Position numbers and translations under genes: made by a program. Shown in pieces: positions 2,565 to 32,808 of a stretch of 64,000 nucleotides of DNA (position 1 is the stretch's first letter; each line of letters starts with the position of its first letter). This stretch comes from Craspedostauros australis. Lineage: Eukaryota > Bacillariophyta > Bacillariophyceae > Mastogloiales > Achnanthaceae. Under the pieces are notes generated by a model. It had not been told where the DNA came from, made no database searches, and saw only the letters and a program-made list of their open reading frames with translations. Location: NCBI GenBank assembly GCA_026770025.1, contig JAMXDE010000065.1, forward strand, positions 1 through 64,000, given 5' to 3'.

Positions 2565-2574
2565 CCCTTCCATT
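2565..2574 (-). promoter_or_regulatory. Polypurine tract of element A
   Basis: On the minus strand this reads aatggaaggg immediately before the 3' LTR start TGTCAGG, the normal place for plus-strand DNA priming. Element B has the similar aggaaggg at the same position. Confidence 0.75.
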
Positions 2575-2647
2575 GTCGCACCACCATACTCAATCACATT
2601 CACACACAAATCGTCTCTCGTCTTACTCCCTTGTCTCGCTCTTGCAC

Positions 2648-8336: not shown

Positions 8337-8404
8337 GGTGGTGTGGTGGTGGTGGTATTTGTTGCTGTGTTGGTGGGTGATGGAAACGTTGGATTTCAAT
8401 CGTA

Positions 8405-8418
8405 ACGTTTCGAAACGT
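8405..8418. promoter_or_regulatory. Palindrome at the primer-binding position of element A
   Basis: acgtttcgaaacgt is a 14-bp perfect palindrome lying directly after the 5' LTR end (CCAACA in element orientation). Element B has cgtttataaacg at the same place. I do not recognise a tRNA 3' end here. It may be part of an unusual priming or dimerisation site. Confidence 0.5.
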
Positions 8419-9921: not shown

Positions 9922-9933
9922 CGTTTATAAACG
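9922..9933. promoter_or_regulatory. Palindrome at the primer-binding position of element B
   Basis: cgtttataaacg is perfectly self-complementary and begins at the first base after the 5' LTR (which ends CCAACA). Element A has cgtttcgaaacg at the same site. The arms are conserved while the two central bases differ. Confidence 0.5.
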
Positions 9934-10003
9934 ATAGATCAGGGCGAGCCCGCGGATCGGATCGTGCGAGGAAGACGAACATCATTCAAGAGCAGCAGGC
10001 TGA

Positions 10004-12058
10004 ATGAGCGAGGAAGAGGAATTGAGAGACATCCCTCTGTCCAACCCGACTATCAAGCAAGAAGAAGGTGCGAGTGAGACTCCACCACGAGAAGAGAAGG
10101 AAGCAGCCGCGGCTACTGTCCTATCAGGCGCAGACGCAAGCGTGATCGACGAGACCGAAGAGGAACGATCTGCAAGACAACATCGCGAGAAGGAGAGGAT
10201 CCTCAAGGCGATTAAGCAAGAGGAGACTGGTGTGACGGAGAGCATTCGCACAGCCAAACAGAGTGGGAAAAGTGAGACACCACCAGGAGGAGAATTTGTG
10301 AGCAAATCAACCCTCGCGAAACAACAAGCGAAAATCGAAGAATCGACAACACAGAAACAGACGAAAATCAAGGGCGCGAGCGCACCAACAACAAAACAAC
10401 GAATCAACATGGCGACATCAGCCAACATGAACAAGCAACGCATCAAGGCGCCGATGTTCAGCGGTGAACAGGAAGACTACAGTGCATGGGAGTCCCAAGC
10501 GAAGGCATACGCTCGTGCACAGAAGACGAGAGACGTGATGTTGGGCAAGACCAAGGTGCCAACAGTGAGCGAGATCGCGGCAGCCGCCGAGGATGCCAAA
10601 GAAGCGATGGAAGAAATCTACGAGCTGGGATGCGACTGCTTCAGCAATCTGATCCTCATGATGGATGCAGAGAAAGGAAAGGGCAAGCAGGCCATCCAGT
10701 ACATCAACCAATGCGTCTCCGACGATTATCCCGAAGGAGATGCACACGCAGCGTGGAACGTTCTCGCGGAGAAGTTCCAACCATCCGACGCGGCAACGAA
10801 GATCAAACTCAAGCGCCAATTCAACAACGAAAAGATGAAGAGAGACACGGACCCCGACATCTACATCACGCGACTCGAGAGTCTACGATCGCGTCTCCAC
10901 GATGTCAAGTACGAGATCACAGATGAGGAGATGATCATGCAAATCCTCAGCACGGTGAGCAGTGAATACAAAACTCACATCGTGAACTTCCAACATCAAC
11001 TCACGTTTAATCCGACAGTGGTCACTATCAACACGATCAGAGGAGTACTCCGCACAGCACACGCCACTCATCAAGGAGGCAAGGCGTACATCGACGACTT
11101 CCAAGACAGTACCACGAAGAGCAACAACACCGGCTTCACGAGCACCGGTAACTTCAAGGGTACCTGCCACAACTGTGGTGTGTATGGTCACAGATCTGCC
11201 GATTGCCCAGAACGCAAGAAATCGAACAACAAGAAAAACAACAACAACAACAACAACAAGATGAACGGAAAGCGCAACAACAACCGCAACAAAGGAAATG
11301 GCTTCAACAGGAAGTGCAACTACTGTGGCATCTTCGGACACCGCGAGGCGGAGTGCCGTAAGAAGAAGTTCAACGAGAACAAGAAGACCAACGAACAGGC
11401 CAACACAGCAACGGAAGGACACGACAAGAGCGGGCACGAGATGGTACTCTCGGCAAAGGACATGCCGCTCTGCATGTTGGTGTCCAACGACTACATCATA
11501 GACTCCTTCTTCGATAACTTCGAGTACGTCAGGAATGACGACGAAGTGCAGGACGATGAGATCGTCCTGGAGTGGCTCAGTGAGGAGCCCATCATCCACG
11601 AGGTGGATCCAAGACGCGAGGTGAGCTACGAGTGCTGCTTCAACGCGCACGACCTGATCGGTTCATACGGCGACGAAGCTGAGATGGACGACGAGGCCAA
11701 CGATAGCGACATCGAAGAGGCCATGAGCAATGACGACGACGACGCCGACGAGGACGGCGCAGATGAAGACGATGACGATACCACCAGAGACGAGGCGAAC
11801 CGCGCCGAGGCGCTGCCTCCTCCAGCAATGCGGAACGAGAGAACGGGCATCTTCGATGAAGAGGACAGCGACGAAGCTGAAGACCATCCAAGCAATACGT
11901 TCAATCCTTATGAACACGTCGTCTACCCAATCCGATCCAATTCCCACCGGAACCAAATCCCAGAAGAGTCGACGACATCTACCGACTCCAGACCTTCCCA
12001 GAACCAACTGTTACTGCAAAACGAATGCAGAAGCAACTCATCTACGACGCGGTCCTAA
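10004..12058 (+). CDS. Element B Gag (UBN2-like) with two zinc knuckles
   Basis: This 684-aa frame starts 82 bp after the LTR. An acidic, Lys/Glu-rich leader of about 145 residues precedes the copia Gag core (KAPMFSGEQEDYSAWESQAK onwards). Two CCHC knuckles follow (CHNCGVYGHRSADC and CNYCGIFGHREAEC), separated by an Asn/Lys-rich spacer. The tail is strongly acidic. The following protease frame overlaps by 34 bases in the -1 frame. Alignment of sense suggests the reading should shift near 11960, by an indel or by programmed frameshifting. It encodes the coat and nucleocapsid of the particle. Confidence 0.9.
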   Translation: MSEEEELRDIPLSNPTIKQEEGASETPPREEKEAAAATVLSGADASVIDETEEERSARQHREKERILKAIKQEETGVTESIRTAKQSGKSETPPGGEFVSKSTLAKQQAKIEESTTQKQTKIKGASAPTTKQRINMATSANMNKQRIKAPMFSGEQEDYSAWESQAKAYARAQKTRDVMLGKTKVPTVSEIAAAAEDAKEAMEEIYELGCDCFSNLILMMDAEKGKGKQAIQYINQCVSDDYPEGDAHAAWNVLAEKFQPSDAATKIKLKRQFNNEKMKRDTDPDIYITRLESLRSRLHDVKYEITDEEMIMQILSTVSSEYKTHIVNFQHQLTFNPTVVTINTIRGVLRTAHATHQGGKAYIDDFQDSTTKSNNTGFTSTGNFKGTCHNCGVYGHRSADCPERKKSNNKKNNNNNNNKMNGKRNNNRNKGNGFNRKCNYCGIFGHREAECRKKKFNENKKTNEQANTATEGHDKSGHEMVLSAKDMPLCMLVSNDYIIDSFFDNFEYVRNDDEVQDDEIVLEWLSEEPIIHEVDPRREVSYECCFNAHDLIGSYGDEAEMDDEANDSDIEEAMSNDDDDADEDGADEDDDDTTRDEANRAEALPPPAMRNERTGIFDEEDSDEAEDHPSNTFNPYEHVVYPIRSNSHRNQIPEESTTSTDSRPSQNQLLLQNECRSNSSTTRS

Positions 12059-13005
12059 CAGCTGCATTGCCGATGTTCCCAGGGTTCATGAACAAACCAT
12101 TGCGATACATATGGGTGAACATGGTAAGCACCATCCTTTCCGCTAACTTCAAATCGATTGAAGAGATCCTCGCAAACGCAGCCATTCTCAACCGACTACT
12201 GCAGGCAGCAGGGGAAGACGAGCTTTCCAAACTCGACTTACACTACATGCTCGGAGGATGCATGCAGATGCTCCTGCGCGAGCAACCGCGCGTCACACCA
12301 TATGACACGGTCACCGGAGTTCATCGGAACAGCACAGTCCCAGCGGACTTCGCAGAACTACCAAGCGATGATGGAATGGACGAAGATTGCAATCCATACA
12401 ACGAAGATGGAGTCCACGAAGATGAAGAAGAAGACGGCCTCATGGATGAAATGGCTGCAGCAGCCGTGGAGCAGCTCCACGAGTTGAGCACCAGATACAA
12501 GGACAAGGTCAACAAGGACACCTGGCTCGCCGACAGCGGAGCTTTGTGTCACATCGTCAATTCAGACGCCGCTCTCTTCAACGTGCGGCACATCAAGTCC
12601 TTCGTCCAAGTGGGAGACAGCACGAAGCTGGACTCTCCCAAAATGGGATCCATTCGCTTGAAGGTCAAGCAACGAGACAACACTGGCCACATCATCCGGC
12701 TCGATGATGTAAAGTACACACCGAAAATGGCGGTGAACCTTTTCTCAATGAACAAGGCTCTGTACAACGGTTACCAGCTTGGTAACAACGGCATTCTGAT
12801 GGACATCATCAACGGATCCGGAACAAAGATCGTGTTCGATCGAGTCTTCCCCACATCCAACGGATTCATCACAGGAGTGCAGATGCATCCCATCATGCCA
12901 ACGGACGATGGCAAGGCTTCCACAGCCATCATCAAGAACTCATCCAAGGAGATCAGCACGGTGAACTTGCATCGAATGCTCGGCCACGCGCCACTCGAAC
13001 CATGA
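12025..13005 (+). CDS. Element B linker domain, aspartic protease, integrase start
   Basis: The first ~150 residues form a region with no recognised domain, lying between nucleocapsid and protease as in element A. The protease signature is WLADSGALCHIVNSD near 12520. The frame ends within the integrase zinc-binding region (LHRMLGHAPLE), where the next frame takes over at 13002. The protease would cut the Gag-Pol polyprotein. Confidence 0.85.
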   Translation: MQKQLIYDAVLTAALPMFPGFMNKPLRYIWVNMVSTILSANFKSIEEILANAAILNRLLQAAGEDELSKLDLHYMLGGCMQMLLREQPRVTPYDTVTGVHRNSTVPADFAELPSDDGMDEDCNPYNEDGVHEDEEEDGLMDEMAAAAVEQLHELSTRYKDKVNKDTWLADSGALCHIVNSDAALFNVRHIKSFVQVGDSTKLDSPKMGSIRLKVKQRDNTGHIIRLDDVKYTPKMAVNLFSMNKALYNGYQLGNNGILMDIINGSGTKIVFDRVFPTSNGFITGVQMHPIMPTDDGKASTAIIKNSSKEISTVNLHRMLGHAPLEP

Positions 13006-14960
13006 AGCGGACAGCCGCCCAATACAGATGGAAGATCATCGGCGAGATGCCGGTATGTCGCGACTGCGCGGTCGCGAACGCAAGAGTGAAGAATATTCCG
13101 AAGGCAACGATTCCAAGAGCAACTCGCCGCGGCGAACGTCTGTTCATTGACATTAATTACACTAAACACATAAGCTTCGGAGAAAAACGCTACTGGGCCC
13201 TGATCGTGGACGACTGCTCGGATCACTGCTGGAGTTTCTTTCTCAAGAACAAAAGTGATCAACCAGGATACATCAAACGATTCGTCCAGACGATCAAATC
13301 ACAGACTGGTGACCAACAGATCATCTTCCGAGGTGATAACAGCAGAGAGAACAAATCCACGCAGGATACTCTCATCGATGCAGGACTCAACGTGAAATTC
13401 GAATTCACGGCATCGAACACGCCGCAACAGAACGGTAGAGTGGAACGCAAGTTCGCGTACCTCTATATCAAGATCCGCTCCATGCTCAATGGAGCACAGC
13501 TCAACGAAGAATATAGGCATGGCCTGTGGGCAGCTGCTGCGAGCACTGCCACTGCCATCGCCAACATCACCGTAGCGAAGAATCAGAAAGAGTCACCACA
13601 TCGACAATTCTTTGGCAACGATCCACCATATGCGGACGCACTCCGCATTTTCGGAGAGGTGGGTGTTGTGAAGACTACCTACGGCGGGATCACCGCCAAA
13701 CTCAAGAATAGAGGAGAAGAGATGGTATTCATTGGGTGTGCACACCAACATGCATCAGGGGTCTACAACATGTACAGACCATCGACCAAGTCACTGATCT
13801 GCTCATGTGACATCAAGTGGCTCAACCAATCATACGGACAGTTCCGTGGCTGGGCACCAGCACCAAACATATCCAGCGAAGCAGGAACGACGGACGCAGA
13901 CGGCTTCACAACCATCGGACGGAAGGGAGCAATGCCAAGGACGGCGATGCGTCGAACATCAGAAGCGAAGAGAGTATCTTTCGCTGGCACGAACAAGTAT
14001 CACATCCTATCAGATAGCGACGATGAGGATGATGAGGATGATGAGGATGATGGAGTAGTGACTCAACTAAGTCATAACGACGAGGAAGATCGGAGCGAAT
14101 CCAATCATGAGGATGACGAGATCACACCATCCGGCGACGAAGCCGACGATGACACAGGCGTCACTCCTCCAAATACACCAGTGAGGTCTACACATGACGT
14201 ACCATCCAGACCTCCACCCAACAAACCAAACAAACGTGACATAGCTAGAAAGGAGAGAATCCGACGTCATGAAGCACGAGACAGGAAGGGAGAAGCTAAT
14301 CCTAAGTCAACTACAGGGAAGAGTACTCCCAGAGCTCTGCGTGAGCTCGCAGACTTCAACGAACGAGGTCGAAAGGAGGAAGGCTATGAGAGCAAGTCAT
14401 CATCCAATGACGATAGTGACGAACTGAGCGATGAGATAACCGACGAGTCCAACAACGAAACTACAGATGACGAAGAAATCGAAGACAAAGATGAAGAGAT
14501 CGAGATCACTCACCATAGCACAACAGGACTATACGGAATGAATGCAATCATCACCGAGGCACCAATGATCGACATCGGATTGTCAATGCAGGACGAGAAC
14601 AAGGAACAAGAGAAGCACATCGAACCAACGACATTCAATGGAGCCTTCAATCATCCAGATCCCATCCATCAAAAGGGATATCGAGCAGCCATCAAGAAGG
14701 AGTTCGACTCCATGAACACACAAAAGGTGTACAGCAAGATCAAACGATACGCCATCCCACGCGGCCGCAGATGCTGCAAATGCAAATGGGTCTTCAAGCT
14801 GAAACGCGACGGCACACATCGAGCACGGCTCGTTGCATGTGGCAAATCACAAATCGCAGGAGTAGACTTCCAAGAGCATTACTCACCCGTCATCCATGAC
14901 GTGACCTATCGGGTCATGATGGTGATCATGCTGATCAAGAAGATGGACTGCGCACCTCGT
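13002..14960 (+). CDS. Element B integrase and start of reverse transcriptase
   Basis: The integrase zinc finger is completed here (PVCRDCAVANARV). The catalytic D, D and E fit FIDINYTK, FRGDNSREN and GRVERKF, with the usual copia PQQNGRVERK context. A long acidic, Ser-rich linker (about 13980-14560) leads to the RT N-terminus (CKCKWVFKLKRDG, RARLVACGKSQIAGVDF). The sense frame is lost near 14960, and the meaningless continuation to 15338 is not annotated. The RT palm continues at 14971. Confidence 0.88.
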
Positions 14961-14970
14961 CGATGTCGTA

Positions 14971-16209
14971 ATGGCATTCCTACATGGAGACCTCGACAAG
15001 GAGATCTACATGAACTGTCCCAACGGGATGGATCATCAAGCAGACGAAGCCCTGACCCTACACAAGCCAATCTACGGACTTGTGCAGAGCGCCAGGCAAT
15101 GGTTCAAGATGTTGGTATCGACCCTCAAGAATATCAACTTCGAACAGAGCACGGCAGACCCGTGCCTGTTCTACAGGAAGACGAACGAAGGAAGCATGAT
15201 CGTGGCCATCTACGTGGACGATTGCTTCTGTTGCGGAGACTCCAAGGCACTGGAGACATTCCTGAAGGACATCCAAGGCAGCAAAATCAAGGTGACAATC
15301 GAGCGCGGACTCGGAGACTACCTCAGCTGCAACATTGAGCTGAACCATGACAAGACCAAAGCAACATTACGTCAACCACACCTCATCCGACATCTCATCG
15401 AAGAATTCGGAACCAAGGTTGAGAAGATGCAACGCTATGGGACACCAGGAACCCCGGGTCAAATCATCGTACGACCATCCGAAGATAACAGACTACAGAA
15501 GGTCGGACCGGAAGAACATGCCGAATACCGCCAAGGCGTCGGTATGCTGCTCTTCCTCATCAAGCACTCGCGACCAGATATCGCGAACCCTGTGAGGGAA
15601 CTCTCCAAGGTATTGATCGGGCCCACCAAGGCCACAATGAAGGAGATGTATCGGATCATCAAGTATGTGATCGATACAAAGGACCATGGATTGAAGATCC
15701 ATCCAGCACGTCCAGACGATGACGGCTGGGACATGGAGCTCTTCTGCGATAGCGAATATGCAGGAGACAAGAACACGAGAATCAGCGTAGGAGGGTTCAT
15801 CCTATACCTGTGCAAGGTGCCAATCCTTTGGCGATCCAAGGCACAGAAGGCCGTCACACTCAGCTCATCCGAAGCAGACTACGTTGACCTTTCCGAAGCA
15901 GCAAAGGAGATCTTCTTTGTCATGCAGCTACTCGAAAGTGTGGGCGTCCCAGTGAAGACACCGATCAAGGTCCGCCTGGACAACATCGGAGCAATCTTCA
16001 TCGCCAAGAACCCATCGACATCCCAACGATCGCGGCACATCGACGTGCGCCATCACTACGTGAGGAACATGGTAATCAACAAAACCATCGAAATCATTTT
16101 CGTCAAATCCGAGCAGAACACAAGCGACGGATTCACCAAGAACATCAAGGCCGACTTACAACGTGAACACGAAAAGTTGTACCTTGATACATCAAGAACA
16201 TTCGAATGA
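14971..16209 (+). CDS. Element B reverse transcriptase palm and RNase H
   Basis: The frame begins in RT (MAFLHGDLDKEIYMNCPNG) and holds the catalytic IYVDDCFCCGD box near 15210. It continues through HSRPDIANPVRELSKVL to a copia RNase H (ELFCDSEYAGD, VPILWRSKAQKAVTLSSSEA, RHIDVRHHYVR). It ends at the TGA at 16207-16209, just before the polypurine tract. This part is intact. Two shortened relatives lie at 29579-30493 and 34109-35023. Confidence 0.92.
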   Translation: MAFLHGDLDKEIYMNCPNGMDHQADEALTLHKPIYGLVQSARQWFKMLVSTLKNINFEQSTADPCLFYRKTNEGSMIVAIYVDDCFCCGDSKALETFLKDIQGSKIKVTIERGLGDYLSCNIELNHDKTKATLRQPHLIRHLIEEFGTKVEKMQRYGTPGTPGQIIVRPSEDNRLQKVGPEEHAEYRQGVGMLLFLIKHSRPDIANPVRELSKVLIGPTKATMKEMYRIIKYVIDTKDHGLKIHPARPDDDGWDMELFCDSEYAGDKNTRISVGGFILYLCKVPILWRSKAQKAVTLSSSEADYVDLSEAAKEIFFVMQLLESVGVPVKTPIKVRLDNIGAIFIAKNPSTSQRSRHIDVRHHYVRNMVINKTIEIIFVKSEQNTSDGFTKNIKADLQREHEKLYLDTSRTFE

Positions 16210-16221
16210 CCGAATGCACAT

Positions 16222-16229
16222 AGGAAGGG
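16222..16229 (+). promoter_or_regulatory. Polypurine tract of element B
   Basis: aggaaggg lies directly before the 3' LTR start TGTCGAG. The same motif precedes the LTRs at 30514 and 35044. Confidence 0.75.
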
Positions 16230-17022
16230 TGTCGAGATGTACATGTGAGTATATGTCGAGATGTACGTGTATATGTGCATCGTTCACCTGCTATTCTCTT
16301 ATACATGTATGGACGGTACAACTACATTCGTGTTGATAATATGCTGTAAATTGGCAAAACCACAGTGGAAATGGAACACAGAAACATGAGGAGAATTTCT
16401 GGAGGAAAGTTGCAATCAATGATTTCTGAGAGAATCAAGAATATCGTCCGTCCATCCATCAATGGAAACGTATGGTATCGAGCGAGCCTCGATGTACTTC
16501 CCAACAAAACTTCAAATGACAACATCCTCATCAAGCCATCGACATCATCGATGGAACGTGACATCTGGAGGAACAGGAAGACGTCAGCTGAAGTCGAAAG
16601 GATGTCATCATGTCACCACATTGACATCTGTCTCCATGTCAGAAGCAGAAAGTGAAGATCCGATGACCGAAGGGCATCAAGATTGTGGATACACGAGGAG
16701 GAGTTCAAGTGGCAAGCACTCATGGAGTGGCAAGCCAGTAGTGAATGAACGAAGTGTCGAATGCGGAGTACACATTGAACACAGAGTATCGTGTAGCATG
16801 AACACACAACATTGAGAGAGAGAGAGAATACGAATAGCAGTGAGAGAGCATCTCGTGTACTGACTCGTAGTCGGAGACCCAATCTACGAAACAGATAGAT
16901 ATGCCAAGAGCATCGGGCAAGAGAACAGAGACATCAAGAGGATCGGAGTGCTCAAGTAATGAAATATCAAACAGAATGACTATCCACGATCGTAGGCTTC
17001 CGAGGTCTGGAACTTGCCAACA
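16230..17022 (+). repeat. 3' LTR of element B
   Basis: A 793-bp LTR, TGTCGAGATGTACATG...GGAACTTGCCAACA. It contains a GA run near 16815 and a short hairpin, ctgactcgtagtcgg, also seen in the other family copies. Confidence 0.9.
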
Positions 17023-17027
17023 GCTTG

Positions 17028-17262
17028 TCACTCCAAGTCGTTGTGGCATACGTGTTTCACTTCAGCTATTTTTCGACCTATGGTAATTGCCATTATTACC
17101 GTTGCTCCCTGTGAGTTGAGGCCAAACGCAGCGCCAGCGGTTTGCGACCCGCAGACAAAGAGGGGCAGTCCCATCCGCACACAATTCGCCGCTTCATCAA
17201 ATGGAGTGGCCACGTTCATCGTCGTCACGACCACAACAACAGCGACGGCAGCAAGGCGGCGA
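17028..17262 (-). other. Possible C-terminal coding remnant
   Basis: The minus strand reads as a plausible protein tail of about 70 residues (including VCGSQTAGAAFGLNSQGA and MAITIGRKIAEVKH). The stop is six bases from the end of the B 3' LTR, and upstream the frame runs straight into the minisatellite. I do not recognise the family. It could be the end of a gene whose N-terminal part is now repeat-encoded, or chance. Confidence 0.25.
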
Positions 17263-17332
17263 TAGCAACAAAAGTGAAAGCAACGCCAGCGAAAGCAGCG
17301 ACAGCGGCGGCAAAAGCAACCATGGCAAAAGC

Positions 17333-18395
17333 AATGGCAGTGAAAGCAATGGCGGCGAAGCAATGGCGGCGAAGCAATGGCGGTGAAGCAATGGCGGCGA
17401 AGCAATGGCGGCGAAGCAATGGCGATGGAGCAATGGCGGTGAAGCAATGGTGGCGAAGCAATGGCGGCGAAGCAATGGCGATGGAGTGATGGCGGTGAAG
17501 CAATGGCGGCGAAGCAATGGCGATGGAGCGATGGCGGTGAAGCAATGGCGGCGAAGCAATGGCGATGGAGCAATGGCGGCGAAGCAATGGCGATGGAGCG
17601 ATGGCGGTGAAGCAATGGCAGCGAAGCAATGGCGATGGAGCGATGGCGGTGAAGCAATGGCGGCGAAGCAATGGCGATGGAGCGATGGCGGTGAAGCAAT
17701 GGCGGCGAAGCAATGGCGATGGAGCGATGGCGGCGAAGCAATGGCGATGGAGCGATGGCGGTGAAGCAATGGCGATGGAGCGATGGCGGTGAAGCAATGG
17801 CAGCGAAGCAATGGCGATGGAGCGATGGCGGTGAAGCAATGGCGGCGAAGCAATGGCGATGGAGCGATGGCGGTGAAGCAATGGCGGCGAAGCAATGGCG
17901 ATGGAGTGATGGCGGTGAAGCAATGGCAGCGAAGCAATGGCGATGGAGCGATGGCGGTGAAGCAATGGCGGTGAAGCAATGGCGATGGAGTGATGGCGGT
18001 GAAGCAATGGCGGTGAAGCAATGGCGGCGAAGCAATGGCGATGGAGCGATGGCGGCGAAGCAATGGCAGCGAAGCAATGGCGATGGAGCGATGGCGGTGA
18101 AGCAATGGCGGCGAAGCAATGGCGATGGAGCGATGGCGGTGAAGCAATGGCGATGGAGCGATGGCGGTGAAGCAATGGCGGCGAAGCAATGGCGATGGAG
18201 CGATGGCGGTGAAGCAATGGCAGCGAAGCAATGGCGATGGAGCGATGGCGGTGAAGCAATGGCAGCGAAGCAATGGCGATGGAGCGATGGCGGTGAAGCA
18301 ATGGCAGCGAAGCAATGGCGATGGAGCGATGGCGGTGAAGCAATGGCGGCGAAGCAATGGCGATGGAGCGATGGCGGTGAAGCAATGGCGGCGAA
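17333..18395. repeat. 14-bp GC-rich minisatellite
   Basis: About 76 copies of a 14-bp unit in three main variants: gcaatggcggcgaa, gcaatggcgatgga and gcgatggcggtgaa. They are often arranged as a 42-bp higher-order unit. The unit has no stop codon in most frames and 14 is not a multiple of 3, so three units encode 14 residues and long frames stay open on both strands (for example about 480 codons on minus and about 300 on plus). These frames are a consequence of the repeat and are not annotated as genes. Looser repeats of the same flavour begin near 17262. Confidence 0.93.
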
Positions 18396-18486
18396 AACGA
18401 TGCCGGCGAAGCGACAGCAGCGAAGCGACAGCAGCGACAGTAACGGTAACAGTAACGGTAGCAACAATATCAAGGTTTGTAGTAGA

Positions 18487-19062
18487 TCAACCTTGAACCA
18501 TCAAACCAACTTGATTCTTGATGCTTATAGATATGTATACAATAGACTGGTAAACAAGACAAGAAGAGAGGCGGGATATGGATACAAATGTAGAATAACA
18601 TAGACTGCCAAAATCACTCCAAATTGTTTGCTTCAACTGTTCACAACTCTGATGGTATGCTTCTCCTGGGGCAGACCCATCAATGATTGTGCGATTGATT
18701 TCATCAAAGGAGACAGCTGCCTGTGCATTCAGTATAGTCGAAGCTCCATTTGTCAACTTTCTGCTCCACTGGTCCCAGTATCGAAAAATGTCGCAGATGA
18801 CATGTTGCAGATGGTATGTTTGACGCTCGGTTTGTCTGGGACAGCTGCTCATTTTGATGACGCCCACAGGGCACATCACTTTGGAAAATGCAGACATGTG
18901 TGCATACAAGTACTGGCCTCTCAGGTGTGCTGTGGGCTTTCCACCATCATTGTCCTCCTCCTTCTCTTCGTTGTGTCTGTTGCAATCTCTCAGGCTGCGG
19001 TTCTTGGGGCTGTCCTGTTCCTCGTCACATGTCCAGAAACACCCAGCAAGCACCGATTCCAA
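18487..19062 (-). CDS. Unrecognised ORF, possible gene
   Basis: A 191-codon open frame on the minus strand, divergent from the large ORF that starts at 19134. Its middle part (from HLRGQYLYAHMSAFSK to SAPGEAYHQSCEQLKQ) has a protein-like composition, but I know no family. The end (VSISRLSSCLVYQSIVYISI) looks non-coding. It may be an exon of a gene or an old transposase piece. Confidence 0.25.
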   Translation of the reverse strand: MESVLAGCFWTCDEEQDSPKNRSLRDCNRHNEEKEEDNDGGKPTAHLRGQYLYAHMSAFSKVMCPVGVIKMSSCPRQTERQTYHLQHVICDIFRYWDQWSRKLTNGASTILNAQAAVSFDEINRTIIDGSAPGEAYHQSCEQLKQTIWSDFGSLCYSTFVSISRLSSCLVYQSIVYISISIKNQVGLMVQG

Positions 19063-19133
19063 CAGTATCTTCGATTGTATATATCAATCCACCCATCGCC
19101 CTCCTTCGTTTGCCCTGCCACCACCTTTGGATC

Positions 19134-22100
19134 ATGAGCCACCCACGCCCAAAATCTCCCGCCAACACCCACCAGCCTTCGCCAAAGGTTCACCGTCCTC
19201 TCGAAGGTCGCGATGTCCACTCTCCTCGCCAGGGGCTCAACCCTTATGCTCTCCCCTTCGTACCATCGGTGTCTCATGACCAATCTAGGATGATTGCACC
19301 AGTGGCACGCTTTGTACCATCCCCACCCCTCGCCAACTACCCAACCATTCTCTACGGTCCAACCCCTGCGTCCCCTCCAACGCATGCCAACTACAACTAT
19401 CCCACAGGAGGTGGGCACTACAACGCTGCGATGCCAACTGTTGGGTATGATGCAAACTTGCATTCTGCTTTCGTTGGCATCCCAAACTACCCCATGCCAC
19501 CTATGGTTGCCACGCCTGCTCCATACGGTACCTCTCCAATGCCACCAATCGCACACGGCATGCCAATCACCTGCTTTGGCAACTTGAAATGTCAAGATTG
19601 TGGTATCGTGTTCTGCGGTTGCTGCAATCCGGCATATGCAAGACTCTCGTTCTGCCCGCAATGTGGAGCAAACCATGAAGGAGCTGGGTGGGTGGGCTTT
19701 GCCCCAGATGATCGCAATCAAAACCACTCCGAAACGGCACCTCGTCCGCATGTCCAAGCGAATCGCAGCGTTGTCATGTCTGCTCCAGTCCCAACCAGCA
19801 TTGACAACAATTGCAATGGTGATACAATGATAGGTGACACCATCATCAACAACGAAGCCTCAGCCCCTGGATGGCCAACCTGGACAAAGGATATGGCTGC
19901 AAAACAGAAGCTCCTATCCCTCTTCGGGATGGCTGGCAGAGATCCAGGCGTGCTGAGGAACTTCCCAAAGGGCGGATACCCAGGGATTTCGACCAAGGCC
20001 AACAGATATCATTGGGATTCCATGGAACAAGCATGGGAAGAGCATGTTTCCATCTTTTGGGATGCAGCTGCCCCCAACACCAAGGCTCCACCCCAACTGT
20101 GTGATGCCATCAAGTATGTCCAACATGACAAGGCTCTCCCTCCTGCAGGATTGTTGGAGACTGTCTGTCACTTTGCCTTCTTTGGAAATGACGACTTCTC
20201 TAAAGCTGCACGTGCAATGCTGGCATGCAAATGTGGTGCCATAGAATGCAAGCGCATCTTGCAATTTCACCATCATGCCCTGCCAGCAGAAGAACAAGCC
20301 AAGGTCGCCAACACTCGAATCACCATGCGCCGAGAAAAGCACAGTCAATTCAAGGATTTGGCGGACACGCTTCTATCTGGGAAGTCAATTCCAAAAATAA
20401 AGCGACCGTACCGTCCACCTGAAGACTCCCTCAAGAATGCCATCTCATACATCACAACCATCGGGCACTACAAGGGTGGCAGATCGCGTACTGTGATGCT
20501 CGATGGCATTGTCTATGATAACTTGCCAATCTTTGTTCGCGACAGTACTCCTCCAAGGGAACTGTTCCGTGACTACATCAAGGGCAATGAGAATGCAGTC
20601 GGCTTTCCCACCTTCCACGACCTCCTCAAGCTGCTGACAAGATGTGGCACTTCACACACCGCCTTGTCCTCCTACTACATGGACATGTCGAACGTCATTA
20701 CTGAATTCAAACTCATGATGGAAAGGATCTTGGAATTACTCCCTGACATCGACGCAACCACAGATCTTCGCGCTGAAGTTTCCATGCTGGTGGACGATGC
20801 TGATGCTACTTTCACCTTTGTGAGATGGGAGTATACCAACTCCCATATGCAAGTTGAGTGTGATGATGACCATCTCCACTCTGCAACATTTGCTCTCACC
20901 GAATGTGATCGGCAGCCATCGAAGCACGTCTGCAAGAAGTGTGCTGCTGCCATGACATTTTTTCCGATCCGCGCCAAGAAAGCCGTCGAAACTGCCAGGC
21001 AATGGATTACAGATGACAATTTTTTGGAGGAGGTGGAAACGATGCCACGTGCAGTCGACTTCTGCAGTGATCAGATGAGAATCTACATGGCTCATCGGAT
21101 CAGGGCGATGGTGCAGTTCAAGCAAAGTGAGCGAAACAACCAATACTTGATGACCCACCCACATGCATGTGTCGCCACGATTGACCACAAGTGCAAGCTC
21201 CTCCCCACCGCGAACAAAGAGACCCAAAGTGATTTCTTTGGAAAAGCAGGAATGTCACTTCTGGGTGTGATGACAGTCATCTTCGCGGATGGAAGATTTG
21301 AACATCGATTCATCGACCTGCTCATTGAGGGGCGTTCTACACAAGACACTCTACAGGTTGCTGGTGCACTGAAGCTCCTCCTCAGAGACATTCTACCCAA
21401 ACTACACAATGGTCTCGAGGAGGTCATCTTTCAGAGTGACAACGCCAGCTGCTTCGCAAGCCCGTCATCCATCCGACTTATCCACGGTCTCAACAGAGGT
21501 GAGCATGGGGTTGCATTCGACATGAAGGGGTATGATAAGAAGCATCCCATTGCTGCTATCAAGCTCAAATCCAAGTCCAAAATCGAAAGCAGCACGACAA
21601 TCGCTGTCAATACCATCGACGCTGTCACAACTACCACATCTACAAGTACAGCTGATGACACTGCTGCTACCGCAATAGCCACATCTGCAAGTACAGCTCG
21701 CGGTATCGAGGCAACCATGAGGACAACTGTTGGCATCATCACCAAGGTCAACAAGAGCACGAAACGCCCAATCAAGGCAAAATGCGGAAGAAAGGCGAAG
21801 AGGGCTGTGGGAAGGAAGCCTGTTGCGAAAACGCCAGAACAAAAAACACGAGCGAAGAGAATGGCGCAGAGAGCAAAACACAGACGCATCAAATCCAACG
21901 CGTTTTTGTTCGCGAAGCGAAAAAGTGAGGACCAAGCCATCAAGAACCGCGGATCAACGCCACCATCAAAACTACCCAAAATCACGCAGTGGCTGTTCAC
22001 AGAAGCCCAGACCGGCAAGAGTCCAGTGGATGGCCACTTTGGCATCGTGGGCAACGTTCTAAGACGAGCCATCAACCGCACAAAGGGCGCAAAGGGGTTG

Positions 22101-23111
22101 ACAGAGAAAGGTATCTACACCAACCTCATCAAGCACAAGATCAAGGGGACAATCATTGTGCTTGCGCATGCTGGCAAGTTGAAGGGCACCACCGTCATGC
22201 AATCCGATGGACTCGAAAACAAGCCATTTCGAACAGAAGAGATTCCCTGCCGAGGTGTGCATCAGGTGGACTTTCGCGATGGCAGCGCTGTACTCACATC
22301 ATCCTCTGGTGTCACCGAGCCAGAGATCATCGATCAAGAAAAGCTGGACAGCTACGACATCCAAGACCTGCAAATACACTTCGAAAGCGACGAAATCAAA
22401 GAGATCGAACCTGCCTTCGTGAAGACGCCAGGTGAAGCCAAGTCTCTGCCAACATACGCAACACGCACGTCACGCGCTCGCGGCAAGCCTGATACTCCAA
22501 AAAGTGCTGTTCTTCGCAATCTCGTCACAAATTGGGTCTTCGATTTCATCTCACAGCCACGCCCTGGCGACGAAGCCAACACTGTCACAGTTGAGCAGAA
22601 GGTCGAGGCTCCTGACTTTGTCGAATCGGGTTGGGCAATCACGTATACCAAAAAGGCGAGTACGAAAGCGACCACGAAGACAGCAGCCACGAAATCAACT
22701 GCAAATTCATCGTCATCATCAGCAGCATCATCGGCGGCACCATCTGTATCAGCATCGCCAACTGTGAAATCGTCATCGAAGCCACCTGCCAAATCAACCG
22801 TGATGCACCCCAATGTGTCGTCCTCTTCGGAATCCAAACCATTGTGGGCATCCGAACAAAAAATCAGGATGATGTCACCCACGAAGAAGAAGAAGACGCC
22901 ACAGCTATCTGAAAAGGTCCGAAAAGCTGCGTGCGAGGCAATCGAAGAAAGCAAAGACAGAACTGACAGGATCACCTCGTATGCTTTGTATGAATGGTTG
23001 ATGGAAAGGGTGATGAAGTATGATTGGGAGCAGAGGGTGTCAATCCAAGCCTCCTTCTTCAAATCGTTTCTGAGAAGTGGCGAGAAGAACGCCGAGTCCT
23101 CCACAGAATAG
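19134..23111 (+). CDS. Large zinc-binding, DDE-like transposase-family protein (1,325 aa)
   Basis: I chose the ATG at 19134 (MSHPRPKSP). The frame is open 82 codons further upstream, but that part overlaps a TATA-like tgtatatatc (19077-19086) and reads as non-coding. Residues 1-145 are Pro/Tyr-rich. Residues 147-177 form a Cys cluster (KCQDCG, CGCC, CPQCG). Residues 430-545 resemble the helical N-terminal region of a family of transposon-encoded proteins in aquatic eukaryotes. A Cys/His segment (576-603, HVCKKC) follows. A possible RNase H-like core has D684 (ATIDHKC), YFGK-like FFGKAGMS, D769 (FQSDNASC) and E957 (FTEAQTGKSPVDGHF). About 140 basic, Ser/Thr-rich residues are inserted between the last two acidic residues. 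The C-terminus is Ser/Ala-rich and then helical. The ORF is intact with no introns evident. No terminal repeats were found, so it may be a stranded transposon gene or a domesticated one. Family placement is from memory of motifs. Confidence 0.7.
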   Translation: MSHPRPKSPANTHQPSPKVHRPLEGRDVHSPRQGLNPYALPFVPSVSHDQSRMIAPVARFVPSPPLANYPTILYGPTPASPPTHANYNYPTGGGHYNAAMPTVGYDANLHSAFVGIPNYPMPPMVATPAPYGTSPMPPIAHGMPITCFGNLKCQDCGIVFCGCCNPAYARLSFCPQCGANHEGAGWVGFAPDDRNQNHSETAPRPHVQANRSVVMSAPVPTSIDNNCNGDTMIGDTIINNEASAPGWPTWTKDMAAKQKLLSLFGMAGRDPGVLRNFPKGGYPGISTKANRYHWDSMEQAWEEHVSIFWDAAAPNTKAPPQLCDAIKYVQHDKALPPAGLLETVCHFAFFGNDDFSKAARAMLACKCGAIECKRILQFHHHALPAEEQAKVANTRITMRREKHSQFKDLADTLLSGKSIPKIKRPYRPPEDSLKNAISYITTIGHYKGGRSRTVMLDGIVYDNLPIFVRDSTPPRELFRDYIKGNENAVGFPTFHDLLKLLTRCGTSHTALSSYYMDMSNVITEFKLMMERILELLPDIDATTDLRAEVSMLVDDADATFTFVRWEYTNSHMQVECDDDHLHSATFALTECDRQPSKHVCKKCAAAMTFFPIRAKKAVETARQWITDDNFLEEVETMPRAVDFCSDQMRIYMAHRIRAMVQFKQSERNNQYLMTHPHACVATIDHKCKLLPTANKETQSDFFGKAGMSLLGVMTVIFADGRFEHRFIDLLIEGRSTQDTLQVAGALKLLLRDILPKLHNGLEEVIFQSDNASCFASPSSIRLIHGLNRGEHGVAFDMKGYDKKHPIAAIKLKSKSKIESSTTIAVNTIDAVTTTTSTSTADDTAATAIATSASTARGIEATMRTTVGIITKVNKSTKRPIKAKCGRKAKRAVGRKPVAKTPEQKTRAKRMAQRAKHRRIKSNAFLFAKRKSEDQAIKNRGSTPPSKLPKITQWLFTEAQTGKSPVDGHFGIVGNVLRRAINRTKGAKGLTEKGIYTNLIKHKIKGTIIVLAHAGKLKGTTVMQSDGLENKPFRTEEIPCRGVHQVDFRDGSAVLTSSSGVTEPEIIDQEKLDSYDIQDLQIHFESDEIKEIEPAFVKTPGEAKSLPTYATRTSRARGKPDTPKSAVLRNLVTNWVFDFISQPRPGDEANTVTVEQKVEAPDFVESGWAITYTKKASTKATTKTAATKSTANSSSSSAASSAAPSVSASPTVKSSSKPPAKSTVMHPNVSSSSESKPLWASEQKIRMMSPTKKKKTPQLSEKVRKAACEAIEESKDRTDRITSYALYEWLMERVMKYDWEQRVSIQASFFKSFLRSGEKNAESSTE

Positions 23112-25737
23112 AATAATGTCCAGAAACAAGGAATGTACCATTCGACTATCGCATTCTGCTTGTAAACTTACTCCTGGTATACTCTGGTGGTGTGCTCTAC
23201 TCGCATCGTAGTCGCTCCCTTCTCATATCATACCCATACTATAATCGCACCATACTATATTCGCACTGTACTCGCAGCTCCATACTCGTGAACTTGTCGT
23301 GCGACATGGTCGTCGTCCGATCTCTCTACAACACTCCATTCTCCATCTGCGCACTTCTGGAACAGGAACAGGCACGAATCGCGAGCGTCTTCACGCCATA
23401 CTACGTCGCCTCCGCCATCGCAAAGAGAGTCGGTTGTGTCCACATTCACATCCATATCTAGATCACTTCTGCGCATAACAGATATTGCGGTGGCGCCGCC
23501 CATAGCATTCAAGCGAGGTACGCTCTTCTTGCCTTGCTTCCGACGCTACGCTGATACTCCCTGCGCGCATGCAGCGACTCATCGTAAACATTGTCGAATC
23601 AACTTCATGATGGATAATCGGCGCAGACGTCGACGACAGCATGATGATGTTTGGCATCCGCTCGCGACCTTCGCAATACGCAAAGCTTGGATCCGTGCCT
23701 CCAAATAAACGAGAAGAAGATCCTGGGCTCGGCCACCTTCGCGTGCTGCTTCCTCAGTGGAGGATTCCATGATGGTGGCAGCCGATGTGTTGCCTGATGT
23801 GCAGCTGAGATATTCGTGGAGGCATGTCGACTACCTTTTCAGCATCGTCGTTGTTGTGATCTTCGTTGTTTGTTGTGGTGCGTGCGTTAATGTTGATTTG
23901 CGCAGCCCGTTCCTCCCTCCGCCGTGCGCGTTTGTGTTCTTGTGCCTTGTCTGATGGCTGCGCTTTGCATGCCCACCATTTAGTGATGAATGTCGTTTGT
24001 TGCCAATAGACAGACCCGACGCCATCGATACGACATGGCTCATTCATGAATGCGATCACAAAGTGAGTAACAGAACAAGCACACCACAACGACAGAGGCA
24101 ACGACGACAATGTTGGATCATGTATGCAGGCGAACCGAAGTTGTTTCTGATATGTGATAAGTGTCCATGGTTGCTGTTGCGTTGTTCACAAGCGGTCGCT
24201 GTGACATGCGTGATGCAAGAATGACGGTTGTACTTCCTTCACGTGACCACAAATACAGAGATTTCTCCGAAGTGGTGAACACAACACACACGCAACACAC
24301 ACTGCAACCATTGCCCATCTGTTCTCTGCCGATCAACCACGATGCAGACAATCAGGCATGGAACGCAGGGACGATGACAGTATTCGCTATCGCACACAAA
24401 ATGCTTGCAGCTATTGTATTCTTATAGTACTGTACTATTGTACGGTGATAATCGCCTCTGCTCCACTGTCCATTCTCAAGCCAGCAGCTCGCGACGATCC
24501 TCAGCCTATCGCTCTCACTGATTGTATTCCGTGTGGAAGGCAAGGATTGCAACACTCGAGCAAAACTGTCACATTCAACGCACCCACCCCACAGATCAAC
24601 AGATGCAAGAAAGGTCCAGGGGACCACCCGATGTGATCGCGGCGGCCAAAAAGCTGTTGCGGCTAGCAGTTGTCCGCCCCTGACTTTACCTCCCATGCAA
24701 AAGTAGGCACGAAAAAAAAATGCAACTGATTTGCGCCAGCACTGGTGGTTCGAGTCTCGGCGGAATGGTTCGGCAGTGGAGCCCATTCTCGTGTTGTTTG
24801 TCTCTGCTCGATCCCTCAAAATGACAAATTCAACGTCTGTCTCACCACCAGGATCGGAATCTCTGAAACGTCCTCTGACGCCAGATCATGCAAACGGAAC
24901 CATGGAATTGGAAAAAATGTGGTCATTTGGCACCTTCTTCCTGCCCAAATCGTGTTGCCATTTGCACAATGATGGCTGCCACAACAGGAAAGGTCAAAAT
25001 CAACCGACAACGACACGAAACACAACACGAGAAACAACAAAGGAAACGACGCTGCCACCACCAGTCTCTTTCCGCGTCGAGCCATCAGCTCAGCAGATGA
25101 ACATGACATCCCATGTTCAAGGGGAGCAACGCAGGTTGCGCAGGACTTTGTATTGACAAACTAAGCATCGCATTAAATAGTATTCTATAATACAATGTTT
25201 TGCACACCACAGAATAAGTCATTGTGCTCCATTACATTATATAATACTGTGTTGTGTGGTATTCGCAAGTGTTGCTGTTGCAACTGATGCGCAGGGATGC
25301 CGCCGACGCTGTGCTGTTTGGCACGACACGCCCAAAGGAGGAAACCCCAAACCGAGCCAAATCACCAACAACGCGAGGAATCAACGTGTCACCAAACCTG
25401 CCGCAACGTCACCATCCACACCGTTGGGTGTCATCGCCGTCTGATATCGACCGTCAAAATCGTCATCATTTTCGTCCGCGGTGAAGACAAGTCGGCGAGG
25501 TATTTGTGTCGTAGAAGCTAGCTAAATATATCTAACCCTAATGGACAACACGAAAAATGATGTTCTAAAAATATCACGTGTTACGATGTCAAATCCGCAA
25601 AAACGTACGATTCTATCCTGAATGGGGCCCTAAGCCAATCAGATCACTCCATTTTGAACACAAGATACCTTCCGAACAGGGGGTGACCAAGACCGAAACG
25701 ATCGTATAACGTCAATCGAAAATATTATGAAATCCTG
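23112..25737. other. Gene-poor interval
   Basis: No recognisable protein or RNA gene. Weak minus-strand frames at 24043-23831, 23770-23579 and 23512-23255 have a somewhat protein-like composition and could be exons of one small gene. A plus-strand frame from 24822 (MTNSTSVSPPGSESLKR) could be a first exon. None has a known domain, so I leave them unannotated. Confidence 0.4.
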
Positions 25738-25782
25738 GAGTTGAGTTATGAACGCCCCAAAAAGAGCGTTCATAACTCAACT
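25738..25782. repeat. 18-bp perfect hairpin
   Basis: gagttgagttatgaacgc (25738-25755) is followed after 9 bases by its exact reverse complement (25765-25782). It could be abutting terminal inverted repeats of small DNA transposons, since a Harbinger-like remnant lies 400 bp downstream. Confidence 0.85.
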
Positions 25783-26189
25783 CTCGCTTTTCATCCGGGT
25801 CTCGCCTCGTGCCTTCCTCTCAAATCGCTCCTCCAACGGCAATTTGGGAGTTTTTTATATTTCCTCCCTCGCATGCGGTGGCATCAGTTTTCAAAACCTC
25901 TGTTGTGCATGTATTGTCGTGCTACCCTCTACTTCCTCCCTTGTTTCTACCATCGACATGCGCTATTTGTCCATCTCCTTTCATGCATGTCGTGGCCTTC
26001 CATCATGTAGCTTGTTCCAAGAGCTTGGATTATGGTTAGCATTTCCTATATTATTGGCATGTGCTCTATCATCATGGATTGCTCCTCTTTCCTCCAACAT
26101 TGCTGCAAGGTAGCCACCTCTACTGTCCTCATCATCGCTGAGCAACTCATGGCACAGCAGCGTCTTCTCACGTTCGCTGTTGCTGACTA

Positions 26190-26522
26190 CCTCCACAATG
26201 GCTTGCCTACTGCTTTGCACAGAGGCTGCTACAAGAGCTCAGGGTTTTCTCTCACGACATCAGTATCTTCTGGCATAACATTCTTGAACATGGTGATGTC
26301 ATGGAGCTCTACAACTTTGTTGGTATGACTAGGGAGTCCTTCACCCAACTTGTTGCTGTCTTGAAGCCATCCATCAAGGCTCTTCCTGTCAATCAATGAT
26401 CTGTGACCCCGTGTCAATGCAATCTGGCACGTCGCAGATACACGCATATTGATGTGGCTGCAATTGTCTTGAAGTATCTCCAACACATCCGCACTATGCA
26501 TATTCAGGACGAAGAGCAATAA
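26190..26522 (+). pseudogene. Decayed Harbinger-like transposase fragment
   Basis: One frame reads as the N-terminal part of a PIF/Harbinger-type (DDE_Tnp_4) transposase: FVGMTRESFTQLVAVLKPSI, an in-frame TGA at 26397, then RRRYTHIDVAAIVLKYLQHI. The catalytic domain is absent. The match is by motif feel only and is weak. Confidence 0.35.
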
Positions 26523-26778
26523 TGCATGGAAGATGCAATGCATAGACGATCAAAAGCCACCCTGGTGTACATGGCATGCCACCAAGTCGGAAGCATATGA
26601 AGGAACATCCAAAGCAGTTAGGAAAGCACATCAAGAATCCAAGGCTGCAAAGCTGCAGAGAGCACGATTGCGCCAAGGGAGCAAGATCCAGATCGAAACG
26701 TGGATGGTACACACGACTCATATAGATCCATTGAGTCGATACCTTTAACGGGACTAGGACCGTGACTCGGGATAGGGG
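26523..26778. other. Unassigned spacer before the tandem duplication
   Basis: A 71-codon plus-strand frame (26533-26748) is basic and unrecognised. The sequence here does not end in an LTR, unlike the equivalent position before the second unit at 31309. Confidence 0.4.
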
Positions 26779-26948
26779 CGCGCCAGCCTCGCCAGTTATG
26801 AAATTATGAGCCACGCAAACACCTCCAGTATCTTCCTCTCGGTACCCCCTGTTTCTGTCGCAGGCGGCCGAAAAAGAGGGCCCCCCCCAAAATAGAAAGA
26901 AGTGAAAGAAAAAGAGGAACAACAAACGAAAAAGTGAGCGTCGTGCCG

Positions 26949-28278
26949 TCACATGTAAAGTGCGGTGATCCTGAGTCGGTCTGCGAGCGGCCACTGAAGG
27001 TATGCGGTTGGCATGTCCTCATTTGCGCGCTGCCGACGCCACCGCCCATGCTCGGAGACTTCGAGCTTGGTTGCTGCTCGCCGACACCCGGGACGTTGTC
27101 GGGAAACGTGTGTTCGTCCTCCCCGTTGGTACATGTGGAAAGAGTAGAATCTGGTAGGGATTGGCATCTCTTGCGCGCCGATGGCTGACCGTAGGAAATG
27201 ATTGCCGCGGCCTTGTTGCTCCAGAAGGGACGGGTATACGAAAGTCGTACGGTAGAAATGAGACGTCCATGGTTGTCCGGAGGAATGATGGACCACGAGG
27301 TCGGTCGGTACGCGATGGTCTTGGTCACGCTGAGCGCGTAGTAGCCAGTTGCCGAGGCTGAGATCGGAGGAGGAACGGAAGGCGATGACGACGTTGGCTT
27401 GTTGGCTGCGATCGGACTTCGTCTGCATGGCCAGCCGGAGCAATACGGCGCCTGTGGCAGGTGGTAGGTTGTTGCTGTCGGCGTCGCGTGGTTCCAGAAT
27501 GGTGACGTCTGCCCATGTGATGCCGAAAGCCTCTGAGGCTCTGAGCCAACCCAACCAGCCCACAAGGTTGATGATGCCTGCCATTGCGGCCGTTCGCCGC
27601 TGTTGCGGAGTGACAGCATGGTGGTATTGATGTAGGAAGCCTTGGTCCATGAAGTGGACATGTCGGGCGAGGAGAGCGGCTGACGGTCGTGAGTCTTCGC
27701 CGAGGCGGGTCCGCATGCCTTGGGTGAGCATGGAATAGCTGAGGTGGTCGGTGGGAAGGCGTTCATTCACAACGATTGGGCGTTGGTTGGCATCCACCAT
27801 GGCGCGTTCTGGGTTGGCGAGACACATGTTCCAGGTCAGGAAGGCTGATGCGGCGCTACGCAGTCCTCGCACTGTGCTGAACTTGAGAGTCCGGTCGCCG
27901 AGTGGATTCTTGCGTGTGGGCGCTTGTGTCGCGTAGTGTTCTTGGGCCCACATGATGGGGATGGTTGCCAAGTGAGGTGGCGTCCGTATATTTGGTGGCT
28001 GTAGTGTTGGGATGCCGTAGGTTTCCCCGAACTTGCGCAGCACGTGGATCTTGCTCCCATACGTAGTTAGCATGCCCGCCACCCAGTTGTGCGCGAGATC
28101 GATGATCCGCATCCGTTCGAGTCGAAGTAGGTGGTGATCGGCCGGACTGGGGACCAGTTCGCGTTGGAGATGGACACGGACCGTGCATGCTTCGCACACG
28201 AACAGGCCCAAGATGCTGAGGTTGGGTGGCAGGATGAGACCCTTGTGGTTGCGTAGGCGTGTGTGGAAAGGGTGCCCC
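26949..28278 (-). CDS. Tyrosine recombinase, 5'-truncated (copy 1)
   Basis: About 420 residues are open. The frame begins inside the LTR junction at 28278 with no convincing ATG, so the N-terminus is missing. The C-terminal catalytic domain shows the first Arg in GWLGWLRASEAFGITWADV, a FHMYQRGGRTHVSR box standing for the H-x-x-R region, EHGRWRR, and the nucleophile Tyr in MPTAYLQWPL. The stop is at 26949. This pattern fits phage-integrase/Crypton or DIRS-type recombinases, which cut and join DNA through a Tyr-phosphate link. An N-terminal FVCEACTVRV may be a metal-binding start. The H-x-x-R region is slightly abnormal. It is likely a mobile-element fragment. Confidence 0.62.
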
Positions 28279-31478: not shown

Positions 31479-32808
31479 TCACATGTAAAGTGCGGTGATC
31501 CTGAGTCGGTCTGCGAGCGGCCACTGAAGGTATGCGGTTGGCATGTCCTCATTTGCGCGCTGCCGACGCCACCGCCCATGCTCGGAGACTTCGAGCTTGG
31601 TTGCTGCTCGCCGACACCCGGGACGTTGTCGGGAAACGTGTGTTCGTCCTCCCCGTTGGTACATGTGGAAGGAGTAGAATCTGGTAGGGATTGGCATCTC
31701 TTGCGCGCCGATGGCTGACCGTAGGAAAGGATTGCCGCGGCCTTGTTGCTCCAGAAGGGACGGGTATACGAAAGTCGTACGGTAGAAATGAGACGTCCAT
31801 GGTTGTCCGGAGGAATGATGGACCACGAGGTCGGTCGGTACGCGATGGTCTTGGTCACGCTGAGCGCGTAGTAGCCAGTTGCCGAGGCTGAGATCGGAGG
31901 AGGAACGGAAGGCGATGACGACGTTGGCTTGTTGGCTGCGATCGGACTTCGTCTGCATGGCCAGCCGGAGCAATACGGCGCCTGTGGCAGGTGGTAGGTT
32001 GTTGCTGTCGGCGTCGCGTGGTTCCAGAATGGTGACGTCTGCCCATGTGATGCCGAAAGCCTCTGAGGCTCTGAGCCAACCCAACCAGCCCACAAGGTTG
32101 ATGATGCCTGCCATTGCGGCCGTTCGCCGCTGTTGCGGAGTGACAGCATGGTGGTATTGATGTAGGAAGCCTTGGTCCATGAAGTGGACATGTCGGGCGA
32201 GGAGAGCGGCTGACGGTCGTGAGTCTTCGCCGAGGCGGGTCCGCATGCCTTGGGTGAGCATGGAATAGCTGAGGTGGTCGGTGGGAAGGCGTTCATTCAC
32301 AACGATTGGGCGTTGGTTGGCATCCACCATGGCGCGTTCTGGGTTGGCGAGACACATGTTCCAGGTCAGGAAGGCTGATGCGGCGCTACGCAGTCCTCGC
32401 ACTGTGCTGAACTTGAGAGTCCGGTCGCCGAGTGGATTCTTGCGTGTGGGCGCTTGTGTCGCGTAGTGTTCTTGGGCCCACATGATGGGGATGGTTGCCA
32501 AGTGAGGTGGCGTCCGTATATTTGGTGGCTGTAGTGTTGGGATGCCGTAGGTTTCCCCGAACTTGCGCAGCACGTGGATCTTGCTCCCATACGTAGTTAG
32601 CATGCCCGCCACCCAGTTGTGCGCGAGATCGATGATCCGCATCCGTTCGAGTCGAAGTAGGTGGTGATCGGCCGGACTGGGGACCAGTTCGCGTTGGAGA
32701 TGGACACGGACCGTGCATGCTTCGCACACGAACAGGCCCAAGATGCTGAGGTTGGGTGGCAGGATGAGACCCTTGTGGTTGCGTAGGCGTGTGTGGAAAG
32801 GGTGCCCC
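31479..32808 (-). CDS. Tyrosine recombinase, 5'-truncated (copy 2)
   Basis: Same as the copy at 26949-28278, with one residue change seen (GNPFLRSAIG here, GNHFLRSAIG there). Motifs LRASEAFGITW, EHGRWRR and AYLQW are all kept. The upstream end is again cut by an LTR at 32809. Confidence 0.62.

Follow-up and report, generated by a model that had tools for sequence, protein, structure and literature searches.

A candidate transposase of 1,325 residues in a large DNA transposon with terminal inverted repeats from the diatom Craspedostauros australis

A long intact ORF with invariant cysteine, histidine, and aspartate residues

The window analyzed here, which covers the initial 64 kb of contig C63 in the 74.8-Mb Craspedostauros australis genome, begins inside a large repeated element, termed family A, whose local copy extends from position 1 to 25629 (+ strand) up to a 3′ boundary common to other copies, the outermost 1.05 kb or so at its 5′ side falling off the contig. 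The element carries an open reading frame (ORF) of 1,325 residues (19134 to 23111, + strand) that we propose, from an ORF scan, the genome copies, and a selection analysis, to encode a DDD transposase, i.e., one with three catalytic aspartates. As described in a first-pass annotation made from the sequence alone, the ORF is a single uninterrupted frame, with its stop at 23111. The same frame is already open from 18888, which would add 246 bases upstream of 19134. Since copy L002 contains a stop within these 246 bases, copy L005 is in another reading frame there, and protein homology with a second family (family B) begins at 19134, the 1,325-residue version is the better choice.

An alignment of eight proteins (three from family A and five from family B) was used to find conserved residues. 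At the N terminus, C153, C156, C161, C164, C174, C177, and H181 are invariant in all eight and form a CX2CX4CX2CX9CX2CX3H pattern (residues 153 to 181; 19590 to 19676, + strand) that would be expected to bind zinc. Other invariant cysteines and histidines, in a grouping of our own, are C367, C372, and H379, followed by H571, H582, C600, and C603. Downstream, the motifs ATIDHK, FQSDNA, TEAQTGK, and PVDGHF start at residues 681, 766, 956, and 964 of the window protein, respectively. Three aspartates in this region, D684 (ATIDHK; 21183 to 21185, + strand), D769 (FQSDNASC; 21438 to 21440, + strand), and D966 (GKSPVDGHFG; 22029 to 22031, + strand), are invariant in 8/8 proteins, among 36 invariant aspartates or glutamates overall. 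They are putative first, second, and third catalytic residues, and their order is consistent with the DDD triad of a ribonuclease H (RNase H)-like transposase; E957, which is likewise invariant, is an alternative third acidic residue. D684 and D769 are separated by 84 residues in all eight proteins. The spacing between D769 and D966 differs, with 190 to 196 residues in the three A proteins and 107 to 109 in the five B proteins, so the basic insertion located there is variable. In the window protein, alignment, composition, and gap lengths place this linker at residues 801 to 945 (21534 to 21968, + strand), i.e., 145 residues including 22 lysines and 13 arginines. The cysteine clusters and ordered acidic motifs of the first-pass annotation were thus recovered as invariant residues; its basic insertion of about 140 residues holds for the window protein and is shorter in family B.

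No significant match to the window protein was obtained in Pfam, NCBIfam, PHROGs, or PDB sequences. Weak matches, on which we did not rely, included Zn_ribbon_bTOP1 (E = 0.1) and DUF6954 (E = 0.18) in Pfam, ribosomal protein S27 on the zinc-type cluster (E = 0.31 and 0.79), and PHROGs and NCBIfam families with E values of 0.05 to 0.6. No relatives were found in viral contigs (by alignment and by pattern), in genome contigs (by alignment), or in phages and plasmids (by tblastn), in searches that used a few short patterns or covered collections without eukaryotic genomes and that may exclude records of the present genome; we do not claim absence elsewhere. An initial degenerate pattern designed on the ATIDHK block was badly chosen and had no match in the genome.

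The ORF is repeated in the genome and evolves under purifying selection

Copies were then sought in the C. australis genome itself, where 35 of 1,366 candidates were scored and all copy counts are consequently lower bounds. Family A occupies at least six near-full places (residues 1 to 1285 or more, 90 to 100% identical, the window copy included), four of which are free of stops, and is also represented by fragments. Family B comprises at least 17 places that are 38 to 40% identical to the window protein over approximately residues 40 to 830, 13 of which have no stop in the matched stretch. The ratio of nonsynonymous to synonymous substitution rates (dN/dS), calculated from copies that were all picked as intact, was 0.20 to 0.31 among four A copies and 0.19 to 0.29 among five B copies; comparing the window ORF with the three other intact A copies gave 0.23 to 0.31. 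The ORF is under purifying selection, and its protein stayed functional while the copies spread. The description of the ORF as standing among decayed transposons was therefore incomplete, since the ORF itself belongs to a multicopy element.

Terminal inverted repeats delimit related element families

The first-pass annotation had reported no terminal repeats while recommending a search for them and for other genomic copies; both were found. A self-repeat search of positions 16200 to 27000 revealed no terminal inverted repeat (TIR), as that segment is much smaller than the element, and it was the comparison of copies that gave the ends. At the 3′ side, nine other places lose their match to the window between 25627 and 25640, and the comparison places a 3′ TIR at 25590 to 25629 (− strand; length approximate) that reads GGCCCCATTCAGGATAGAATCGTACGTTTTTGCGGATTTG from the end inward. 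All 10 A 3′ ends that were read, the window's included, show CTGAATGGGGYC followed by NTAN, although two of them share a flank. The tetranucleotide next to the window's TIR, CTAA (25630 to 25633), fits NTAN and is presumed to be the 3′ copy of a target-site duplication, a form established on other copies, as the opposite side is off the contig. In copies on contigs C2, C16, and C9, the sequence matching window base 5 sits 1.04 to 1.06 kb inside the terminal repeat. The 5′ TIR of the window copy is thus invisible, as the 5′ end lies some 1.05 kb upstream of the first base of the contig.

A ends begin with GRCCCCATTCAG and B ends with GACCC. The reverse complement of the A 3′ end, TANGRCCCCATTCAG, had 97 forward and 97 reverse matches in the genome, compared to 0 and 0 for a reversed-pattern control. 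Of these 194 ends, 94 are listed on contigs C1 to C16, where they form 37 inward-facing pairs spanning 4.6 to 39 kb; beyond these contigs, only six, on C17, are listed by place. On C1 to C16, four of five places matching the A-type ORF (three elements) lie inside A-end pairs, the fifth being a fragment. For family B, a comparison of two copies yielded a TIR of 38 to 45 bp starting with GACCCGCCTGAG together with its inverse, and 55 ends formed 23 pairs spanning 12.9 to 46 kb. With up to three mismatches allowed, 10 of the 17 B ORFs fall within B-end pairs. Two of the remaining seven were examined, both on contig C8, and have diverged GACCC ends of their own. TIRs of the kind found in cut-and-paste DNA transposons are therefore present in families A, B, and divergent B, of which the window copy shows the 3′ end only.

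Ends of a further type, TATGACCCGTGTGAG (in one case TAAGACCCGTGTGAG), are paired approximately 6.6 to 7.5 kb apart at C1:786102-793568, C3:948671-955334, C4:1311654-1319128, and C27:140201-146843, among other places. These pairs suggest another related element family. The search for this type, with one mismatch allowed, returned 59 and 59 matches, compared to 14 and 12 in the reversed control.

Elements are flanked by 4-bp NTAN duplications

Matching 4-bp duplications of the form NTAN flank 23 of the 24 elements inspected. All 10 A-type pairs carried one (ATAA, ATAG, TTAC, ATAG, ATAC, ATAG, GTAT, TTAG, GTAA, and GTAT); three of these elements carry the ORF and the others are relatives by their ends. 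Given that TA was already part of the pattern used to find the A pairs, the independent test concerns the outer two bases only. For family A, the TA itself is supported by the 10/10 3′ ends mentioned above, which were read without that pattern. The B search pattern contained no TA, and 9 of 10 B pairs had matching flanks, every one of them WTAW. Two further B copies showed TTAT and TTAA, and both divergent B elements on C8 were also flanked by duplications (ATAA and TTAC). The duplication thus has a fixed length of 4 bp, as seen on elements other than the window copy.

The ORF very probably encodes the transposase of these elements

Imperfect TIRs starting with G-purine-CCC, 4-bp NTAN flanks, and related families are common to this set of elements. 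TIRs, 4-bp duplications, many copies, purifying selection, and three invariant aspartates in order together support the transposase-like nature of the protein. We thus consider it very probable that the ORF product is a transposase of the DDD type and that it belongs to a large, autonomous cut-and-paste DNA transposon working like Sola. Regarding the transposase-like protein of the first-pass annotation, element structure, selection, and the aspartates agree with it, and its DDE-like core is suggested by the order of the motifs.

Several observations weigh against this interpretation. The RNase H-like core is proposed from motif order, and none of the searched libraries ties the window protein to any transposase. 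Empty sites were sought for two B copies and none was found, both sites being unique in the genome. One of the 10 B pairs has unequal flanks; it adjoins the apparent end of another element. The window copy is itself untidy: long terminal repeat (LTR) elements are nested in it and its 5′ end is missing from the contig, its ORF being intact. Finally, and as the main complication, a piggyBac-like gene in truncated form (PF13843, E = 3.6e-21), considered below, is present in a group of 4.6-kb elements that have A-type ends and duplications.

If the ORF is the transposase, its putative zinc-binding N-terminal part and a helical region would recognize the element ends, and the predicted RNase H-like core (D684-D769-D966) would cut these ends and join them to target DNA centered on TA. 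The cut would be staggered by 4 bp, given the central TA and the 4-bp duplication. The basic linker would be a flexible insertion separating the second aspartate from the third, and shorter elements that have A-type ends but lack this ORF would be mobilized in trans.

Comparison with known superfamilies

The element is best filed as a TIR DNA transposon family whose superfamily is unplaced. The strongest alternative, to which we give an even chance, is that it belongs, unrecognized, to an established superfamily, with Sola as the most likely one, and is left unplaced only for want of a Sola reference. Indeed, nothing in Pfam or NCBIfam matched the window protein significantly, and no named Sola reference is among these profiles. 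According to PMC10741241, Sola elements have a DDD transposase, 4-bp duplications, sizes mostly of 2 to 9 kb with some above 15 kb, and TIRs of 11 to 1124 bp. The present elements resemble that description in their 4-bp duplication (23/24 elements), three invariant aspartates in a candidate DDD transposase, large size, and variable TIRs. In contrast, Sola2 duplications are reported as AWWT in PMC3627910, a form shown here by none of the 10 A-type, 1 of the 11 matched B, and neither of the 2 divergent B duplications; all of these are NTAN. The terms “NTAN,” “target site duplication,” and “transposon” together retrieved no paper from a collection of openly licensed articles, which does not prove novelty in print. 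A Sola2-like motif, SDG...GKGPCDG, also resembles SDN...GKSPVDG in the window protein, and Sola is known from protists.

Kolobok and piggyBac were considered as well. According to PMC9587614, Kolobok has TTAA duplications and 5′-RR...YY-3′ termini, and its KolobokP lineage has duplications of 3 to 5 bp, so TTAA is not universal in that superfamily. The present elements share with Kolobok a 4-bp duplication and termini of this form (GA or GG), but TTAA is seen in none of the 10 A-type and in only 4 of the 11 matched B duplications. The C/DxxH signature of Kolobok, hAT, P, MuDR, and Dada, located between the second aspartate and the last acidic residue, appears as DKKH in or beside the basic linker of 3/3 A proteins; it is absent from 5/5 B proteins and hence not conserved across the family. 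A 4-bp duplication with a central TA is shared with piggyBac, whose transposase has a DDD triad, whereas the termini described here start with purines. The piggyBac domain PF13843 matched neither the window ORF nor its core, and the positive control, the piggyBac-like element L101, matched with E = 7.5e-49. A profile of three sequences also gave no match between the core and the L101 protein.

The first-pass annotation had raised the possibility of a new superfamily member, with which the lack of significant profile matches agrees, in libraries whose named references did not include Sola or several further superfamilies. That the protein founds a superfamily of its own, or a fourth group of the Sola kind, is a tentative proposal, less probable than membership of a known one; it would be characterized by G-purine-CCC ends, NTAN duplications, a long N-terminal zinc-binding region, a variable basic insertion, and at least three end sets in one genome.

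A cargo role or a domesticated gene would explain the data less well

Alternatively, the ORF could be cargo in elements that are moved by a piggyBac-like transposase. Such genes are common in the genome (79 matched places), and the central TA recalls the TTAA of piggyBac. On C1 to C16, 10 of 35 piggyBac-like places lie inside A-end pairs, but these ten have frames of at most 486 residues, and none of the 18 open frames of at least 600 residues on these contigs does. Similarly, none of the 79 places falls within the 23 B-end pairs. In L101, GACCCGGG occurs some 9 bases in from the left end; with one mismatch allowed, however, L101 contains three matches compared to 2.46 expected by chance, i.e., no excess. 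Moreover, a separate left boundary near TATCCCTTAACG characterizes the L101 family, since 10 other copies start within five bases of the same point, and the flank of L101 is part of a repeat, other copies of which mostly match as far as this boundary. L101 is flanked by CTAT on the left and ATAC on the right, its right end being provisional. The longer piggyBac-like genes thus form their own elements.

The B copies scanned contain a single ORF above 412 residues, namely, the transposase candidate. A 412-residue frame on the minus strand of B copy L026, with only shorter frames in L023 and no convincing Pfam match, was not treated as a gene, nor were the frames of at most 230 residues in the outer parts of two B copies. 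Together with the purifying selection on the ORF, these results make a cargo role improbable. We read the truncated piggyBac-like gene of the A-type elements as captured sequence. One of these elements, L099 (C1:380340-384920), which is possibly captured or hybrid, spans 4.6 kb and has family A ends, an ATAC duplication, and a piggyBac-like gene (PF13843) whose frame is open despite truncation. Seven L099-like places, L099 included, exist in the genome and are 96 to 100% identical to it.

The least probable explanation is that a domesticated host gene, a possibility raised in the first-pass annotation, was amplified by segmental duplication: the intact ORF under purifying selection would suit it, and outer flanks common to some copies (C64 and C82) indicate that some are duplicated or allelic, but different elements lie with precise ends between different duplicated NTAN tetranucleotides, which largely refutes it, and the ORF occurs at the six or more near-full A places and 17 or more B places counted above.

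Structure of the window copy and neighboring sequences

Two LTR elements of the Copia type are nested in the window copy upstream of the ORF. The older one (9194 to 16984, + strand; ends approximate) has LTRs that are 79% identical; it occupies the same place in the C19 copy, and the C82 copy has the same downstream junction. The younger one (1776 to 9193, − strand) has LTRs that are 96.7% identical and is absent at that point in the C19 copy. A 14-bp tandem array (17233 to 18400; ends approximate), also located upstream of the ORF, is found at the corresponding side in several other A copies.

From 25630 onward, the window continues into a repeat with many copies. Twenty-four other places of this repeat start matching exactly at 25630, which fits either insertion of the A element into the repeat with CTAA as its target or the repeat's own end. 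Farther downstream, two near-identical 420-residue ORFs on the minus strand (26949 to 28211 and 31479 to 32741) have no significant Pfam match; by eye, they may resemble a tyrosine recombinase. A pair of ORFs resembling a long interspersed nuclear element (44583 to 50047) includes an endonuclease domain (PF03372, E = 3.4e-9), and its 1,481-residue ORF weakly matches reverse transcriptase (E = 0.0077) and RNase H (E = 0.003). The window also contains a 552-residue cysteine-rich repeat protein with four DUF7640 stretches (58641 to 60299), which is probably a host gene.

Implications

With these results, an orphan ORF is assigned to a mobile element whose exact ends and target rule are defined. 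Should the element fall outside the approximately 20 superfamilies described according to PMC9587614, it would add a lineage to them. Should it instead belong to Sola, that group would gain another target form as well as very large elements.

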